Shown one piece after another: positions 33,775-40,463 of a stretch of DNA of 43,833 nucleotides. The DNA lies in NCBI GenBank assembly GCA_018499985.2, contig JAHBAT020000014.1, positions 1-43,833 on the forward strand, read 5' to 3'. Numbering within the stretch: the first letter of the stretch is position 1; each line of letters starts with the position of its first letter. Under the pieces are notes generated by a model that was not told where the DNA came from, made no database searches, and worked only from the letters and a program-made list of their open reading frames with translations. This DNA comes from Candidatus Moraniibacteriota bacterium. Lineage in GTDB: Bacteria > Patescibacteriota > Minisyncoccia > Moranbacterales > UBA1568. The translations under genes and the position numbers were made by a program.

Positions 33775-34887
33775 TCAGTTGAATACCAAGGCCAAAGTTT
33801 GCCGCTTCCAGCTGGTCCGGTCGAGGCCGAACGTCAGCCGGACACAGCCATCGCCCCGAACCCTGGTTTCACCAGAGAACGAGCGGCCATCCGGCGAACG
33901 AGTCCCCGGCACGCCGTTGATACGAACGTAACCGGTAAGCTCGTAGGGCGCTTCCGCTCCGAGCGAGACGAACACCGTTGGAATGGTGAACGTCCGATTG
34001 CCCGGGCGAATACCGCACACCTTCTGCATGGCCGTCGAGGTCGTGACAACCTCCCTGGTCACTTCGTAGGTGAGCTCGCCAGTAGCCTGCGCCACCATGC
34101 CGTGTTCTTCCCTCTCTGCCTGGTAGGCATTGAGTTCGTCCCACTGGGCATCAGTCAGCTCTTCACCAGCTTCGATGCGAGCCAGGAGCGCTTCTGCCCG
34201 GGCATTTTTCCGGGCATCATCACGCTCCATGAGGGCCCGCTCGATACGGTTCGTGGTGCGGTCTTGAGGGTGGGTATAGCGATAGCCAGCCACCACCAGG
34301 GCCACAAAGCCGAAGGTGAGAATCACGCCCGTCACCACCTTATAGATCTTCGGTGGTGCCTTGTAGACGAGGGACCAGAGGCCCACGCCACCCAGGAAAA
34401 CGAGTGCGCCCATGGCCGGCCAGCCGTGTTCAAGCTTGAAGAGAGTCAGGACCGCGAAGGCCGTGATCCAGAACAGGAAGATGTGGGAAATGACTCCCAC
34501 ATACCCCTTGAACTGGTCGACTGCCGACTTGGCCACCTCCCCCAGTTGGAAATTGGGGAGGTTAAACTCCTTCAGGATTTTCTCCAGCTCGATATCCGGG
34601 AGTCCCCGGATGCCGCCCAAGGCCAAGATGAGCGCCAAGGGCTTGGGGTGGAACGTGAAGTAGGCCCATGCTGCCATCAAGATGAACATGATGACTGCGT
34701 TGAGTTCCTTCGCGTCCCAGCTCACATTGAGCCAGACCCCAAACCCGAACAGAAGCATCGGCCCAAGAATGAAGTAGGGCATAGCGTTCCGGTAGATTTT
34801 CGAGATGTACTCGAGCTTCTCCCGGGCCGCAAGGGCAAGAAATTGTGCGGTCTTGCCCCAATACCGCGTTGTACCACTGACTGCCAT
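33775..34887 (-). CDS. Island protein B: polytopic membrane protein with C-terminal domain
   Basis: This 370-aa protein is not recognised. It has about five or six hydrophobic segments (about 36-55, 62-80, 82-95, 132-150, 156-175, 184-202). A charged helical stretch follows (about 208-265, EAxxARIEAGEEL type), then a beta-rich C-terminal domain (about 270-370) with repeated short strands and two cysteines (Cys291, Cys348). Base composition differs sharply from the neighbours: 39 of 60 bases are G or C at 33841-33900, against 26 of 60 in nusA at 32761-32820. It ends in TGA, the only such stop here. It starts 3 nt after the stop of island protein A, so the two are one operon and probably one membrane complex. 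Acquired origin is inferred. Confidence 0.75.
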   Translation of the reverse strand: MAVSGTTRYWGKTAQFLALAAREKLEYISKIYRNAMPYFILGPMLLFGFGVWLNVSWDAKELNAVIMFILMAAWAYFTFHPKPLALILALGGIRGLPDIELEKILKEFNLPNFQLGEVAKSAVDQFKGYVGVISHIFLFWITAFAVLTLFKLEHGWPAMGALVFLGGVGLWSLVYKAPPKIYKVVTGVILTFGFVALVVAGYRYTHPQDRTTNRIERALMERDDARKNARAEALLARIEAGEELTDAQWDELNAYQAEREEHGMVAQATGELTYEVTREVVTTSTAMQKVCGIRPGNRTFTIPTVFVSLGAEAPYELTGYVRINGVPGTRSPDGRSFSGETRVRGDGCVRLTFGLDRTSWKRQTLALVFN

Positions 34888-34890
34888 GAT

Positions 34891-35880
34891 TTAACTCCCT
34901 GTGTTTCTGTAAGCGATCACGAGGATCGCGATGGTGATGAGGATGAAGATCCAGGTTTGCCAAGACCAGTACGTCGGAATTTTCTTCTCCAGACGTGTGA
35001 TCATGTATTCACCTTCGGCATTCCACTTGCCCTTTTGGGGAATGGTGATGCCGTCACGATGGGCTTCGATTTGGCCTCGCTTGTCAGCGAAGGCTGCTTC
35101 GAAAGCCTCTTCGTAGAGCGCATTCAATTTCTCGATGCGCTTCGGATCACTGATTAGCACTGCTCCTTCAGCTGCCTCGAAACGATCGCTCATCCCCAAG
35201 GAGATGAGAGCATCATAGGCTCCAGAGGCGATAGCCGCCTGAAGCTTTTGCGCTTTTTCGATAGCTAATTCCGAGATGGACTTCTCGTCAAAGAAGTTGC
35301 CGAGGAGGTACTCGTAAGCGGCTTTGAAATCATCGTGACCACTCTTCTCGTCGTAGTTCGGGGTGTCTGACTTGATCAGACTGGCCACATACACCAAGTG
35401 TCCAACCCGAGGATCTTCACTGGTGTATTCGTAGTCTTTCGGAAATCGCTGGAAATTCCGGATGACCTCATGAAGGCCACCCTTCTTCCCTTGCTGATTC
35501 TGACCTTGAGCACCAGCCTGAGGCGTTGCCGCCTGGGCCGGAGTCTTGGTCACCACCGAGGTTTCAAATTTCTCGAAATGCTCAGTGAGTACCAGCGTCG
35601 CGATAATCTTCCGCCAGCGTTCCCGCTGGTGCGGCTTCAACCGCTTGCTCCGGAGAGCGGCGATCTTCCGCATCACCACCAGACCATCCACATTGAGCGG
35701 ACCTTCCGGCTTGAGACGCGCTACTGCCTGATCAACCGCGAGAAGAATCGCCTCATCATCCAGTGTCGGCAAAATACCATCTGCCTTCTGCTGGGTAAGC
35801 TTTTCGCCACTCATCGCCCGAAACGCCTTAAAGGCATCCCAGGCCATGGAGGCGGCTCCGATATCAAATCCTGCTGCCAT
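34891..35880 (-). CDS. Island protein A: tail-anchored soluble protein
   Basis: This 329-aa protein is not recognised. It is helical and soluble for about 305 residues, with a Gln/Ala/Gly-rich linker near 111-134 (TPAQAATPQAGAQGQNQQGK), and ends in one membrane helix (about 309-325, WIFILITIAILVIAY). That makes it a tail-anchored protein with its bulk in the cytoplasm. Two parts flank the linker: residues 1-105 (helical, with KPHQRERWRKIIATLVLTEHF) and 140-300. AAAAGGA lies 8 nt before the ATG, a better Shine-Dalgarno than most genes here have. It is the first gene of the GC-rich island. No enzyme motif, Walker box or nuclease signature was found. Confidence 0.75.
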   Translation of the reverse strand: MAAGFDIGAASMAWDAFKAFRAMSGEKLTQQKADGILPTLDDEAILLAVDQAVARLKPEGPLNVDGLVVMRKIAALRSKRLKPHQRERWRKIIATLVLTEHFEKFETSVVTKTPAQAATPQAGAQGQNQQGKKGGLHEVIRNFQRFPKDYEYTSEDPRVGHLVYVASLIKSDTPNYDEKSGHDDFKAAYEYLLGNFFDEKSISELAIEKAQKLQAAIASGAYDALISLGMSDRFEAAEGAVLISDPKRIEKLNALYEEAFEAAFADKRGQIEAHRDGITIPQKGKWNAEGEYMITRLEKKIPTYWSWQTWIFILITIAILVIAYRNTGS

Positions 35881-36042: not shown

Positions 36043-36068
36043 AAAAACCCCTTAAATAAGGGGTTTTT
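36043..36068 (-). terminator. Terminator after tandem-pilin gene
   Basis: The perfect 12-bp arms AAAAACCCCTTA (36043-36054) and TAAGGGGTTTTT (36057-36068) lie 22 nt after the stop codon. Confidence 0.92.
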
Positions 36069-36089: not shown

Positions 36090-37199
36090 TTAACTTGCGA
36101 CAAAAAAGTCTGCTATTTGCCTCACAATCACCAAGGCGGAGAATGTCACAATCATACCAATAATGGCGTATTTGACGATATCTTTGGCTGTACCAGCTTT
36201 TTTGTCATCACCGGCTGAGGTAAGGTACATAACCGCTCCCACTAAAAACATAATAATAGCCAGAATACCGATAATACCGAGAAGAAAGTTAAGGACATTG
36301 GTAGCAATCTCTGTCAACGAAAGCGCTCCACTGGCCTGACTTGGAAGATCTGTCCAGCCAAGCACTCCTCCAATTTCTTTGAGGAAAGATGGTGCAATCA
36401 TGACTATGGCGAGTCCTACGAGAGCAGCAGTGACAGCTGCCTTGGCAGCACTGATGCGCTTATCGTTACCTGCAGAAGTGATATACAAGAGGCCTCCAAT
36501 AACGAGAAACACGAGAGCAAGAATCACGACAATGTTACGAAGCGTCCCCATCACCTGATCGAGAAGAGCCTCTACCGTGTCGTACTCTAGTGGATTATCA
36601 ATTTCTACAGTGACAGGTGCGCTTGGGGTAGCGGCACCACCTCCGGTAGTAGGCGCGGTAGGGACACAGCAGTTACCCTGATTACCACAAGTACCTTGAG
36701 CAGTCTTGCCACTTGGACAGCCGGCGCTTACAGAAGCACACACTGCCCCGGCAATAGCCGTACAAGTAGCGCTACTATTTGGCGTCGAAGGAGTAGCTCC
36801 GCCGCTCGGTGGAGTGCCCCCCCCACTTGGTGGAGTAGCTCCACCGCTCGGTGGAGTAACAGGAGCGCTGTAAGGAGTAGAGAGAGCTACGCTACGAGAG
36901 ACAAAGGTTACCCCCGAAGTAGGTTCTCCTGTTTTTAGAAGACTATAGCCATTAGCTATAATGATACCCGCATCACGATTAACATTATTTGACTCCGTAG
37001 GATTAAGGCAGCATTTAAATCCAGTTGTGGTGTACACGTTTTGATTCGAAGATTCACCACTCTGACAATTTTGGGTACTCACAGTATTGATACCTCCATA
37101 AGTACCGCATGCCAACTGTACCTTTGGAGCAGCTGCATAAACAGAAGGAGCATTCAATCCTACGAGAAAAATAAAAGCGAGATAAAATATTTTTTTCAT
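36090..37199 (-). CDS. Tandem pilin-like protein with Cys-rich ectodomain
   Basis: This 369-aa protein has a signal peptide (about 1-23) and an extracellular region to about 200. That region contains a CGTYGG...CCLNP part, a PPSGG-type repeat linker (about 114-137) and a second Cys cluster (146-178, eight Cys). Two successive T4SS-pilin/VirB2-like modules follow. Module 1 (about 205-278) has ITSAGNDKRISAAK between two helices. Module 2 (about 296-367) has LTSAGDDKKAGTAK. The SAGxxKxxxxAK loop between paired helices is shared by the three small pilins upstream. A two-pilin fusion with a large disulfide-rich head suggests a tip, adaptor or adhesin subunit. It starts 3 nt after the previous pilin stop. 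Role inferred. Confidence 0.78.
   Translation of the reverse strand: MKKIFYLAFIFLVGLNAPSVYAAAPKVQLACGTYGGINTVSTQNCQSGESSNQNVYTTTGFKCCLNPTESNNVNRDAGIIIANGYSLLKTGEPTSGVTFVSRSVALSTPYSAPVTPPSGGATPPSGGGTPPSGGATPSTPNSSATCTAIAGAVCASVSAGCPSGKTAQGTCGNQGNCCVPTAPTTGGGAATPSAPVTVEIDNPLEYDTVEALLDQVMGTLRNIVVILALVFLVIGGLLYITSAGNDKRISAAKAAVTAALVGLAIVMIAPSFLKEIGGVLGWTDLPSQASGALSLTEIATNVLNFLLGIIGILAIIMFLVGAVMYLTSAGDDKKAGTAKDIVKYAIIGMIVTFSALVIVRQIADFFVAS
36789..36854 (-). repeat. PPSGG-coding tandem repeat
   Basis: Three imperfect copies of a 21-base unit encode a (TPPSGGA)-type linker in the tandem-pilin protein. This is a flexible Pro/Gly spacer. Copy number could vary by slippage. Confidence 0.7.
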
Positions 37200-37202
37200 A
37201 AC

Positions 37203-37598
37203 TTAAAAAGCTACATTTGAAGCAGTAAAGAGAGCGCTCACAGCCTTAATCACAATAAGGCCACTCAAAGCCACTATAATCCCAATGATGGCATTGATCA
37301 TATTGCTTTTACCTTTCTCAGCCATCTTGGGATCGCCGGCTGAGGTAAGATACTGAATACCCGCTACCACAAAAGCGATAATAGCGATAAAACCAAAAAT
37401 AGAAAGGAGCCAGAACATGAATGTCTGAAGAATAATGGTCACCGGTCTATCAGAAAGGCCAGTATTGGTCGGGATACATACCCCTGCCTCTATTGTTCCA
37501 GCGCATGTCACTGCTGCCAAAACAAGTCTGTTGCTCAAAACAATCAACACTGAGAAAAAAGTGGTAACGAAAAATGTATGACGCGAAAAGATTTTCAT
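37203..37598 (-). CDS. T4SS-type pilin-like protein
   Basis: This 131-aa protein has a signal peptide (about 1-29) and a short loop with a Cys pair (CAGTIEAGVC). Two membrane helices (about 55-80 and 99-122) are joined by the charged loop YLTSAGDPKMAEKGK. This is the VirB2/TrbC-like pilin layout typical of CPR genomes. VirB2 subunits assemble into helical filaments with lipid, and whether this one does is inferred. It has its own promoter immediately after a terminator and is co-transcribed with the tandem-pilin gene 3 nt downstream. Confidence 0.8.
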   Translation of the reverse strand: MKIFSRHTFFVTTFFSVLIVLSNRLVLAAVTCAGTIEAGVCIPTNTGLSDRPVTIILQTFMFWLLSIFGFIAIIAFVVAGIQYLTSAGDPKMAEKGKSNMINAIIGIIVALSGLIVIKAVSALFTASNVAF

Positions 37599-37684: not shown

Positions 37685-38053
37685 CTAGAAGTTAGTGGTA
37701 CTTCCTTGCAAGAAGGTGTTGACTGCCTGGATGATTACAAAACCAATCAAAGCAACAATTACACCAGTAATAGCGGCTGTCATAGCGTTCTTAGCTTTCT
37801 CAGCACGCTTCTCATCTCCCGCTGCGGTGAGATAAAGAATACCAGAGATTACAAAGGCAATAATACCAATGAAACCAAGGATTGCTAGCAGGTAGTTCAT
37901 ACCTGTTCTGATGATACTTACGATAGTCCCTCCTGGGAGCTGTGCACTTGAAGCATTGTTGATACCTGCATTCCACTGAGCGTGAGCGAGTGTAGGAACA
38001 AGTGTCAAGCCAAAAGCAAGCGCACCGTAAACTGTCTTTTTAAGAAATGTCAT
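37685..38053 (-). CDS. T4SS-type pilin-like protein, likely major subunit
   Basis: This 122-aa protein has signal peptide MTFLKKTVYGALAFGLTLVPTLAHA cut after AHA, then a short Asn/Ser-rich N-terminus and two membrane helices (about 48-70, 90-112). The pilin loop LTAAGDEKRAEKAK joins the helices. I chose the ATG at 38053. The GTG at 38065 lies inside the Shine-Dalgarno sequence itself. That Shine-Dalgarno (AAAGGAGGTGA) is the best in the whole window, where most genes have none. High expression is therefore inferred, as expected of a filament's major subunit. Confidence 0.82.
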   Translation of the reverse strand: MTFLKKTVYGALAFGLTLVPTLAHAQWNAGINNASSAQLPGGTIVSIIRTGMNYLLAILGFIGIIAFVISGILYLTAAGDEKRAEKAKNAMTAAITGVIVALIGFVIIQAVNTFLQGSTTNF

Positions 38054-38122
38054 ATTTTCTCTCACCTCCTTTCCTTTGTGAGTAAACTCTTTACGAGCAC
38101 TCTGTTTTTATATTGATGTTTT

Positions 38123-38407
38123 CTAACCGACAAAAAACTCCGCCAACTGACTTATAATTATCATTGTCCCAAAGGCTACCACAGCACCGATAATGGCATA
38201 AAAAAGAATTTTTTTTGCGACCTCGGCTTGCTTCGGATTACCTTGAGCGGTCAGATATAAAAGTCCAGAAATAACTACCGCTATTATAGCAAGCACTCCT
38301 ATGATTGACAATAAAAAATTGACCACATTTTGCAAAACACTCGCAATACTTGGCGCATCACTTATCGTACCAGCGTGTACTATATGTGTTCCGAATAAAT
38401 CCCACAT
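38123..38407 (-). CDS. Short T4SS-type pilin-like protein
   Basis: This 94-aa protein has two membrane helices (about 25-52, 67-90) and the loop LTAQGNPKQAEVAK, matching the two neighbouring pilins. Its N-terminus (MWDLFGTHIVHAGTISDA) is short, and a classical signal peptide is not clear. The frame also opens at 38440, but that would overlap the upstream gene. The ATG at 38407 lies one base after that gene's stop (TAACATG), which points to translational coupling. Probably a minor subunit or assembly partner. Confidence 0.75.
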   Translation of the reverse strand: MWDLFGTHIVHAGTISDAPSIASVLQNVVNFLLSIIGVLAIIAVVISGLLYLTAQGNPKQAEVAKKILFYAIIGAVVAFGTMIIISQLAEFFVG

Positions 38408-38408
38408 G

Positions 38409-38912
38409 TTATTTTGGTTGACTATACGGAGAGAGATCAATGTTGTTTTCGCAAAAACTAAACCCTAGATTTTTACCAGCTAATTCTTCGTTCGTACTAA
38501 ATGGTGCGCCGACATTTGTCTTAATCTTGCAAGCATCTTCTTTAGTAATACCAAGTATCTCTAGAAGTCTTCCTTGCGCTGCCACTCTTGCTTGAAGTAA
38601 ATCTCCCCCAAGAAGAGTGATATTAAATACTTCATCATTTGAAAAATACTCGATCATAAACATCTTATCTTCAGCTAAGAGCACATTACCTAGCTCATCT
38701 GGCTCTGAGATTGCCTTGGTCATTGGATCAGGATAAGTCACTTCTTTGTAGGTATCGCTATTGGTAGCGGCAGAATATGTAACCGATTGAGAAACAACTT
38801 CAACTGGTTCTTCTACTGGCGCTACTGGCTGATTTTTCTTACTCAAGATAAATCCATACCAAGCACCTGCTCCAAGTAACAAGAGTATAACAATAATAAT
38901 TATTTTTTTCAT
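38409..38912 (-). CDS. Membrane-anchored protein in pilin cluster
   Basis: This 167-aa protein has an N-terminal membrane helix (about 3-23), a Pro/Glu/Val-rich stalk (PVAPVEEPVEVV), and an extracellular domain of about 110 aa. Two cysteines (in DACKI and SFCEN) could form a disulfide. The DELGNVLLAEDKMFMIEYFSNDEVFNITLLGG segment shows alternating strands and helices. No family was recognised. It sits between the SGNH-pilin-transglycosylase fusion (12 nt upstream) and a pilin (1 nt downstream), so it is probably an accessory subunit of the same surface machine. Confidence 0.7.
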   Translation of the reverse strand: MKKIIIIVILLLLGAGAWYGFILSKKNQPVAPVEEPVEVVSQSVTYSAATNSDTYKEVTYPDPMTKAISEPDELGNVLLAEDKMFMIEYFSNDEVFNITLLGGDLLQARVAAQGRLLEILGITKEDACKIKTNVGAPFSTNEELAGKNLGFSFCENNIDLSPYSQPK

Positions 38913-38924
38913 AGTACTTGAGTA

Positions 38925-40412
38925 TTAAAGGCTTCTTGGAATACTACACCTTCTGGCTGCCCCCCATGGTCCGGTATTGGTACCGTTATTACTCAATCGA
39001 CAGGCTACGGCAATATTCTTAGCAGCATTGGTTGCGGCTGCTTTACACTGATTATAAAGCGTTGGATTGATTACTCTACAGCTATGGTTACTAGCGGTAT
39101 AAGCTCCGCCTGAGAAAGCCGCTGGACAATTGAGTCCATCTACAGTATTAGCAGTAATATTGATTTGAAACAATCCAAAAGAAGCCGCATTACCATCTGC
39201 ACAGACATCTGTAGAACTTGGGATACGTACGTTACCGTTACTTTCTGCCTGACAAATAGCGGACCAAGCATTGACGCTAGCCCCTCCAAAACAAGTACTC
39301 GCTAAATTAGAGGTGGAGCAAGGATTAGATGTTGAATTCGTGACTGGCTGACAGGTACCTGAACCAGAAAAACTTGTTCCACCACCCGTGCCTCCGCCCG
39401 TGCCTCCGCCACCAGAGCCAGCTCCAGCGCCAAAGTTTGTACTCGTAGCCGTACCAGCATTTGAGGCAGTGTCGCACGTAAAAGAAAAGGTACCTGTTTG
39501 CTGTAGACCTGCCGCTGAAAAAAAGTCAGAGGCTCCCATGATTCTAATCACTGTACTGACCACTACCCAGGCTACTAGTATCCATACCACTCCAATCAAA
39601 GCCGCTTTGATACCGCCCTTTGCAATACCAATCATCTTGTCATTGCCAGCAGAGACTATATAGAGAATGACCATACCAAAAATCATGGCGATGGCAATCA
39701 CGGTCATGACATTGCGTATCCAATCGATAATAGTATCAACCATCAAGAGCGCATGACAAGCGGTACATGGCTTAGATTCATCAATATTAGAGGTGCGAGG
39801 ATCGTCACCACTAAGGCCGCAGGTTACCAAACCAGCCTCTACCGGACCCGATGCCACTGCATTGTAGGTCGGGCCACCCGTGCCTGTAGAAGTACCTCCC
39901 CCTGGAGGAGTAGCAGCGCTCGCTGCTGCACCTAAAGCAGTCTGCACTGCGGCAGCTACCTGACTATAGCTTCTTGGGTGCACTCCATCTGGTGCTGCAG
40001 GAAAACTTGAAAGATCCACGGTGGCATCAGAACCAGCTACTGACCTTACTGTAGCCTTGGCACTCGCATTATATGGAAGAATCCAAACAGTCTTTGCATT
40101 TGGTTGCTTAGCTCTAATCCTTCTCAGGTTAGCAGCCAGGCTACTGCTCGTCGGATCATTACTCCCTGCCGAAATTACCATATGAGTAAACGTACCTGAG
40201 CCATCGTAGCCAGCTATGGTACCAGAACTTGCACCCACTACAGCAGATGTTTTGGTCACTCCTCGCAAGCTTCCAGAAACTCCTACCGCAATACTATCGC
40301 CGATCACAAGGATAGTATCAGCAGCAAAGGTAGTGGCAGGGAAACTTATAAAAGTTCCTCCCAAAAAAAGAAGACTCATCAAAAAATATGCTTTTGATAT
40401 TTGTTTTTTCAT
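38925..40412 (-). CDS. SGNH esterase / pilin-like / lytic transglycosylase fusion
   Basis: This 495-aa secreted membrane protein joins three modules. After a signal peptide (1-31) comes an SGNH-hydrolase domain (about 33-165) with GDSIAVG (Ser40), SAGSND (Asn85) and the Asp/His pair DGVHP (Asp142, His145). A Gly/Thr linker leads to a pilin-like double helix (about 225-292) with YIVSAGNDKMIGIAK. A second Gly-rich linker (328-350) leads to a disulfide-rich lysozyme-like domain (about 354-490). Its AICQAESNGN carries candidate catalytic Glu390, and SFGLFQIN (411-418) is the family's second motif. It would deacylate and then cleave peptidoglycan from a membrane-held pilin scaffold. Residue roles follow the families, and the combined job is inferred. 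It heads the pilin operon. Confidence 0.82.
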   Translation of the reverse strand: MKKQISKAYFLMSLLFLGGTFISFPATTFAADTILVIGDSIAVGVSGSLRGVTKTSAVVGASSGTIAGYDGSGTFTHMVISAGSNDPTSSSLAANLRRIRAKQPNAKTVWILPYNASAKATVRSVAGSDATVDLSSFPAAPDGVHPRSYSQVAAAVQTALGAAASAATPPGGGTSTGTGGPTYNAVASGPVEAGLVTCGLSGDDPRTSNIDESKPCTACHALLMVDTIIDWIRNVMTVIAIAMIFGMVILYIVSAGNDKMIGIAKGGIKAALIGVVWILVAWVVVSTVIRIMGASDFFSAAGLQQTGTFSFTCDTASNAGTATSTNFGAGAGSGGGGTGGGTGGGTSFSGSGTCQPVTNSTSNPCSTSNLASTCFGGASVNAWSAICQAESNGNVRIPSSTDVCADGNAASFGLFQINITANTVDGLNCPAAFSGGAYTASNHSCRVINPTLYNQCKAAATNAAKNIAVACRLSNNGTNTGPWGAARRCSIPRSL

Positions 40413-40420
40413 ACATCTTA

Positions 40421-40426
40421 AGTATA
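40421..40426 (-). promoter_or_regulatory. -10 box of pilin operon
   Basis: TATACT on the minus strand ends eight bases before the ATG at 40412. It follows the T-rich tail of the typA terminator. No -35 match was found, and the leader would be 1-2 nt. Confidence 0.5.
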
Positions 40427-40439
40427 CAAGAAAAAAGAA

Positions 40440-40463
40440 AAACAGCCCATCGATGAGCTGTTT
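40440..40463 (-). terminator. typA terminator
   Basis: AAACAGC (40440-40446) pairs with GCTGTTT (40457-40463). Inside them a C-A mismatch separates the self-complementary CATCGATG. TTTTTCTTTTTT follows on the minus strand. Confidence 0.85.

Follow-up and report, generated by a model that had tools for sequence, protein, structure and literature searches.

A VirB2-Like Pilin Protein Bearing SGNH Hydrolase and Lysozyme-Like Domains in Patescibacteria

Introduction

A 43,833-nucleotide stretch of a Candidatus Moraniibacteriota genome (the window) encodes a protein in which an SGNH hydrolase domain, a VirB2-like pilin hairpin, and a lysozyme-like domain follow one another. According to the available text of one survey, most patescibacterial genomes with VirB2 have no recognized VirB1 (PMC12102498). 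Lytic transglycosylases and lysozymes are blocked by O-acetylation (PMC1199599). The reading favored here, with slightly better than even confidence, is that the protein is a specialized VirB2-like pilin that supplies the cell's type IV secretion (T4SS) or pilus apparatus with its wall-opening enzymes. Pilin-fused enzymes of this kind would fill the VirB1 gap and would explain how the channel passes through peptidoglycan.

Results

Domain Architecture of the 495-Residue Protein

The gene is the first in a six-gene, one-strand unit with terminator-like hairpins at both ends, and is followed by genes for a 167-aa protein, three pilins, and a double pilin (Table 1). Catalytic and structural motifs proposed by the first-pass annotation, which was made from the letters and a list of open reading frames, were all located at the expected sites: G38-D39-S40, G60, S84-N85-D86, and D142-G-V-H145 in the SGNH part, SAGNDK at residues 254–259 of the pilin hairpin, and E390 (within QAESNG) and SFGLFQIN (411–418) in the lysozyme-like part. 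The three domains that it had named were likewise recovered, using Pfam profiles, an AF2 model of the SGNH domain, and motif conservation. In a plain Pfam scan, T4SS_pilin (PF18895; residues 227–287, E 2.4e-5) and SLT_3 (PF18896; residues 374–484, E 1.8e-5) both fell slightly below the curated cut-off (24.7 vs. 26.6 for the pilin); in a whole-genome profile search, both scored above it (29.5 and 29.3 bits, respectively). The closest full-length relative is also from Candidatus Moraniibacteriota, and the window genome belongs to the same family. A TATACT sequence lies a few bases upstream of the SGNH-pilin ATG (window 40412–40430), an arrangement resembling a leaderless transcript.

Table 1. 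Features of the pilin unit, in window coordinates
Feature	Position	Strand	Basis
Terminator-like hairpin following typA, bounding the pilin unit upstream	40440..40463	(-)	
SGNH–T4SS_pilin–SLT_3 protein, 495 aa, ATG start	38925..40412	(-)	ORF, Pfam, and motifs
Signal peptide, residues 1–30	40323..40412	(-)	By eye: hydrophobic N-terminal stretch preceding SGNH
SGNH hydrolase domain, residues 31–165; Ser40, Gly60, Asn85, Asp142/His145	39918..40322	(-)	Model, OatA match, conservation
VirB2-like T4SS_pilin hairpin, residues 217–291	39540..39764	(-)	PF18895 at 39552–39734, 29.5 bits; two model helices
Gly/Thr-rich linker, residues 320–352	39357..39455	(-)	Sequence; low pLDDT
SLT_3 lysozyme-like domain, residues 374–484; Glu390 at 39243–39245	38961..39293	(-)	PF18896; E390 and GLFQIN
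167-aa membrane-anchored partner	38409..38912	(-)	Homologues immediately downstream of SLT_3 at 10 other loci
T4SS pilin	38123..38440	(-)	PF18895, E 8e-11
T4SS pilin	37685..38065	(-)	PF18895, E 1e-7
T4SS pilin	37203..37598	(-)	PF18895, E 3e-11
Double T4SS pilin	36090..37199	(-)	PF18895, two stretches, E 3e-21
Terminator-like hairpin bounding the pilin unit downstream	36043..36068	(-)	

The N-Terminal Domain Has an SGNH Hydrolase Fold

Pfam gave a faint match of the SGNH part to GDSL_2 (E 0.013). The AF2 model, built from an alignment with 34 relatives, reached pLDDT values of 93–98 over residues 31–160, and VIA-align superposed SGNH enzymes on the modeled domain with Z scores of 13–15.6 over about 130 residues. 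The best structural match was Staphylococcus aureus OatA (Z 15.6, 2.2 Å, 130 residues, 16% identity); rows no more than one Z unit apart count as ties, and OatA is therefore not the only candidate. Campylobacter jejuni Ape1 was among the Foldseek matches of the model. Blocks I (GDS), II (G), III (GxND), and V (DxxH) of SGNH hydrolases and their alpha/beta/alpha fold are all present. Across the 35 aligned sequences, no variation was seen at G38, D39, S40, G60, N85, D142, or P146, and H145 is nearly always kept. The fold proposed in the first-pass annotation was thus borne out by the model for the SGNH part, whereas for the lysozyme-like part it stands as a profile match with motif conservation. 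The two residues on which that proposal had been staked are retained in relatives, Ser40 in all 35 sequences and Glu390 in all eight that were compared.

The OatA match does not settle the substrate, because OatA is a transferase that adds acetyl groups and the fold alone gives no substrate. The window domain shares the SGNH fold and catalytic blocks with OatA and Ape1, the enzymes of peptidoglycan O-acetylation, but lacks the acyltransferase-3 membrane domain. In the favored reading, it would take off an acyl group, addition being the less likely direction, and the probable target is the acetyl group of MurNAc.

Phage and Plasmid Relatives of the SGNH Domain

The window SGNH type is common in phages, where it mostly occurs as stand-alone proteins of 125–135 aa that start without a signal peptide. 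Two phage loci (L081 and L082) encode a gp5-like spike protein in which a baseplate OB domain, an SGNH domain, and phage lysozyme domains are joined, and in a third (L083), the SGNH domain lies behind an apparent baseplate hub protein. In the SGNH tree, the two spike sequences form the sister group of the window SGNH, with support of 92/88, below the top support class. They resemble the window protein in combining an SGNH domain of the same subfamily with a lysozyme in one presumably wall-penetrating protein, but they have an OB fold where the window protein has a pilin, and their lysozyme belongs to another family. A general tie of the SGNH family to lysis genes was rejected for the stand-alone phage copies; among the 25 Pfam families listed, out of 79 in their neighbors (144 ORFs), only three were wall-enzyme families, with one member each.

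Plasmid copies were accompanied by conjugation genes within 7–8 kb at 13 of the 16 annotated loci examined, by a lytic transglycosylase at six, and by neither at three. These loci are mostly plasmids with transfer systems, many of them near-copies of one another, and the linkage of the plasmid copies to T4SS is suggestive only. One sequence named "Bacteriophage sp." (L043; MT835823.1) resembles a piece of a sphingomonad conjugative plasmid; its SGNH domain is 93% identical to one on NZ_CP144671.1, and TraG-like and TraH-like frames lie upstream.

The SGNH Domain Is an Accessory Module

A second protein from the same family (L038) joins SGNH and pilin domains to a different lysozyme-like domain (SLT, E 0.002). 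The SGNH domains of the two proteins are 68% identical with the catalytic residues kept. Their codons show identities of 73%, 78%, and 27% at positions 1, 2, and 3, respectively, and are under strong purifying selection. Homology of the two C-terminal regions was rejected (z -0.4). Each pilin is nearer to pilins of its own genus: the window pilin is 56% identical to these (vs. 42%), and the L038 pilin is 73% identical to that of its congener L036, which has no SGNH domain. A chance fusion or an assembly error might be suspected from the rarity of the SGNH domain in the order, but the presence of the same fusion in the independent genome of L038, conserved to this degree, makes such an accident extremely improbable.

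The SGNH domain was found in two of 131 genomes of the order; nearly all close relatives lack it, and it is therefore an accessory, not a core part, of the pilin-hydrolase proteins. A pilin followed by SLT_3 occurs in six relatives (L010, L014, L015, L023, L063, and L065), and the window protein shares this arrangement with the patescibacterial proteins that carry PF18895 and PF18896. Compared with these, it adds an SGNH domain in front, and its pilin belongs to the CTxCH type found in its own genus. We infer that lateral or independent addition of an SGNH module to resident pilin-hydrolase backbones fits these data best.

The Combination Recurs in Another Patescibacterial Order

A survey for SLT_3 also brought up a pilin-SLT-SGNH protein from another class (L074). 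In the order to which it belongs, 14 of 86 genomes gave a strong SGNH match (E < 1e-50); in 13, the matching ORF contains a pilin hairpin as well, and in one, it is cut by a contig end. Four genomes have SGNH-pilin-SLT (G553, G556, G579, and G573). In another five, SGNH comes after SLT; the pilin precedes both in G229, G580, G543, and G531, and the ORF is cut in G548. Of the remainder, three have a C-terminus that Pfam leaves unnamed, and two match M15 or glucosaminidase weakly. The first-pass annotation knew of no protein with this domain order; the same order was found in L174, L177, L184/L209, and L215, and it is rare rather than unique. Pilins of this order also bear Amidase_2, VanY, or C39 domains.

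The SGNH sequences of this order form a clade (100/99) separate from the window type, and the latter falls with sequences from phages and plasmids (97/91); long branches meet where the two subfamilies split. Since the two sets belong to separate subfamilies, the joining of SGNH, pilin, and wall enzyme most likely took place on two or more occasions, and a single, very old origin is less likely. Its recurrence suggests how Patescibacteria open the cell wall for a secretion channel. With SGNH and hydrolase domains joined repeatedly, and apparently independently, on pilin hairpins and phage spikes, an "unblock, then cut" mechanism becomes testable with small domains.

Arrays of modular pilins with SGNH, SLT, Amidase_2, VanY, C39, or alpha/beta-hydrolase-like domains were observed at eight loci (L174, L177, L184, L200, L201, L203, L205, and L215), and in several loci, such arrays lie directly upstream of radA. 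One patescibacterial protein without a pilin (L067:490–2409) carries an SGNH-like domain after a phage-tail-lysozyme-like one. A match of the first SGNH profile (L042/L169) in genome G498 was discarded as a long collagen-like repeat protein.

The Lysozyme-Like Domain and Its Partner Gene

Glu390 and GLFQIN are invariant in the eight SLT_3 sequences compared, and the domain is rich in cysteines. When modeled from the single sequence without an alignment, the SLT_3 part gave a pLDDT of 37, so its fold is assigned from the profile match and the conserved motifs. Profile-profile comparison of SLT_3 with SLT domains returned a probability of 25.8%, and the best PDB profile match was an endolysin (E 0.09). 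PF01464, the VirB1-type SLT profile, does not match the window protein; its sole match in the genome is the one ordinary SLT protein, on contig 21. The profile survey found SLT_3 in 23 of 380 genomes of the phylum, many patescibacterial SLT_3-like domains occur without a pilin fusion, and no relatives were found in the viral contigs searched. The domain is a predicted cutter of glycan strands, either as a transglycosylase or as a hydrolase.

At ten other patescibacterial loci, a homologue of the 167-aa protein lies 0–20 nt downstream of an SLT_3 gene. Together with the window, the family is directly 3' of the SLT_3 gene at 11 of the 15 canonical loci, pilin-fused or not, and at none of the 10 noncanonical SLT_3-like loci examined. 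These counts comprise strong adjacent matches, all already found by plain search; the last profile round drifted onto propeller proteins. Family members carry a single membrane helix at the N-terminus, followed by an outside domain in which two cysteines are conserved. The partner tracks the enzyme rather than the pilin, a pattern expected of an inhibitor, an activator, or a chaperone. It is possibly an inhibitor or immunity protein of the muramidase, and its conservation offers a simple test of self-protection.

Discussion

In the proposed mechanism, the signal peptide would send the SGNH domain outside, and the hairpin would lie in the membrane, its short loop facing the cell interior, a topology predicted from sequence that would place the lysozyme-like domain outside as well. 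The SGNH domain would clear an ester, probably the O-acetyl group of MurNAc, and SLT_3 would then cut the glycan strand beside the assembly as a local counterpart of VirB1. The first-pass annotation had already assigned the two enzymes a joint task on peptidoglycan, and this well-supported inference is the natural reading, because an SGNH domain paired with a peptidoglycan hydrolase recurs on pilin-type proteins (L038 and nine genomes of another order).

VirB1 and the Gram-positive enzymes TraG and PrgK (PMC12857230) resemble the window protein in being exported wall cutters presumed to serve a T4SS, and TraG and PrgK are, like the window protein, membrane-anchored with possibly more than one enzyme domain. 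The window protein differs from these VirB1-type enzymes in using a VirB2-like pilin hairpin as its anchor, SLT_3 as its lytic domain, and SGNH as a second enzyme. Its tandem, divergent pilins resemble the VirB2 arrays described in Patescibacteria (PMC12102498 and PMC10633639). In contrast to the window array, the available text of those two papers does not mention enzyme-bearing pilins, nor does that of the patescibacterial T4SS surveys covered, which were mainly open-access journal papers.

Two features of the genome count against the wall-opener reading. VirB4 is commonly, although not obligatorily, found beside VirB2-like pilins and is absent there in this genome; the pilin unit is on contig 5, and VirB4, read as two adjacent frames, is on contig 20 with a PrgI-like gene adjoining. 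The ordinary SLT protein, moreover, could serve as VirB1. Further points against it are the transferase nature of OatA, the low-confidence SLT_3 model, the loose tie of the stand-alone phage relatives to wall genes, and the absence of an SGNH domain from nearly all close relatives. In its favor, the genome does have VirB4 with a PrgI-like neighbor, and all but one of its pilin domains lie in the window array. The separate location of VirB4, like the many SLT_3-like domains that occur without a pilin, would suit an autolysin acting on the cell's own wall in growth or division, with no tie to secretion and the hairpin a mere membrane anchor. We regard this as quite improbable: the gene shares one unit with four other pilin genes, and SLT_3, SLT, Amidase_2, VanY, and C39 recur on a single hairpin family, which an anchor would not require for so many kinds of hydrolase. 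A somewhat unlikely alternative, which overlaps the other readings and concerns one domain, is that the SGNH domain acts on a different ester (capsule, host glycan, or lipid) or transfers an acyl group in the manner of OatA. A transferase gives the best match to its fold, the substrates of SGNH enzymes are diverse, and the stand-alone phage relatives, besides starting without a signal peptide, rarely adjoin wall enzymes, which argues against a family-wide tie to peptidoglycan. Against this alternative, an SGNH domain and a peptidoglycan hydrolase are combined within single proteins both in phage spikes and on two or more pilin backbones that are unrelated to each other.

The wall that is opened might also be that of a host bacterium, with the enzyme-armed pilin displayed on a surface pilus or at its tip, working like a phage spike, and the 167-aa partner protecting the producer; we hold this to be unlikely. 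The closest SGNH kin are spike-like phage proteins with lysozymes, the partner's position at 11 of 15 canonical loci and its anchored, two-cysteine architecture would suit a protective role, and, as given in the available text of PMC10633639, T4SS pilins are essential for epibiotic growth in one cultivated patescibacterium. Such bulky two-domain pilins may not polymerize, however, and a role for the partner in activation, anchoring, or chaperoning is just as plausible. A wider proposal is that modular pilins with SGNH deacylase, muramidase, amidase, and peptidase domains give Patescibacteria a pilus-borne counterpart of the phage spike, directed at host walls, with a dedicated membrane-anchored inhibitor (the 167-aa family) shielding the producer; we see only a small chance for it. 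For a pilin that opens the wall for secretion, the hairpin may or may not be assembled into a pilus, and the wall that is cut may be the host's or the cell's own.

A search for VirB6 with the TrbL_3 profile gave no match, and the control was equally silent. Apart from the window array, the genome has one other pilin domain, on contig 16, in a protein (L168:5089–6462) whose C-terminus looks M15 peptidase-like by eye, in a part without a Pfam name. The next gene (L168:6478–7617) encodes a propeller-like protein, and relatives of this protein adjoin pilin-hydrolase genes at many loci in two orders. Two adjacent genes of the window (33775–35880) have a third-position GC content of 0.62–0.74, compared with about 0.4 in the other genes measured, and are possibly foreign DNA.
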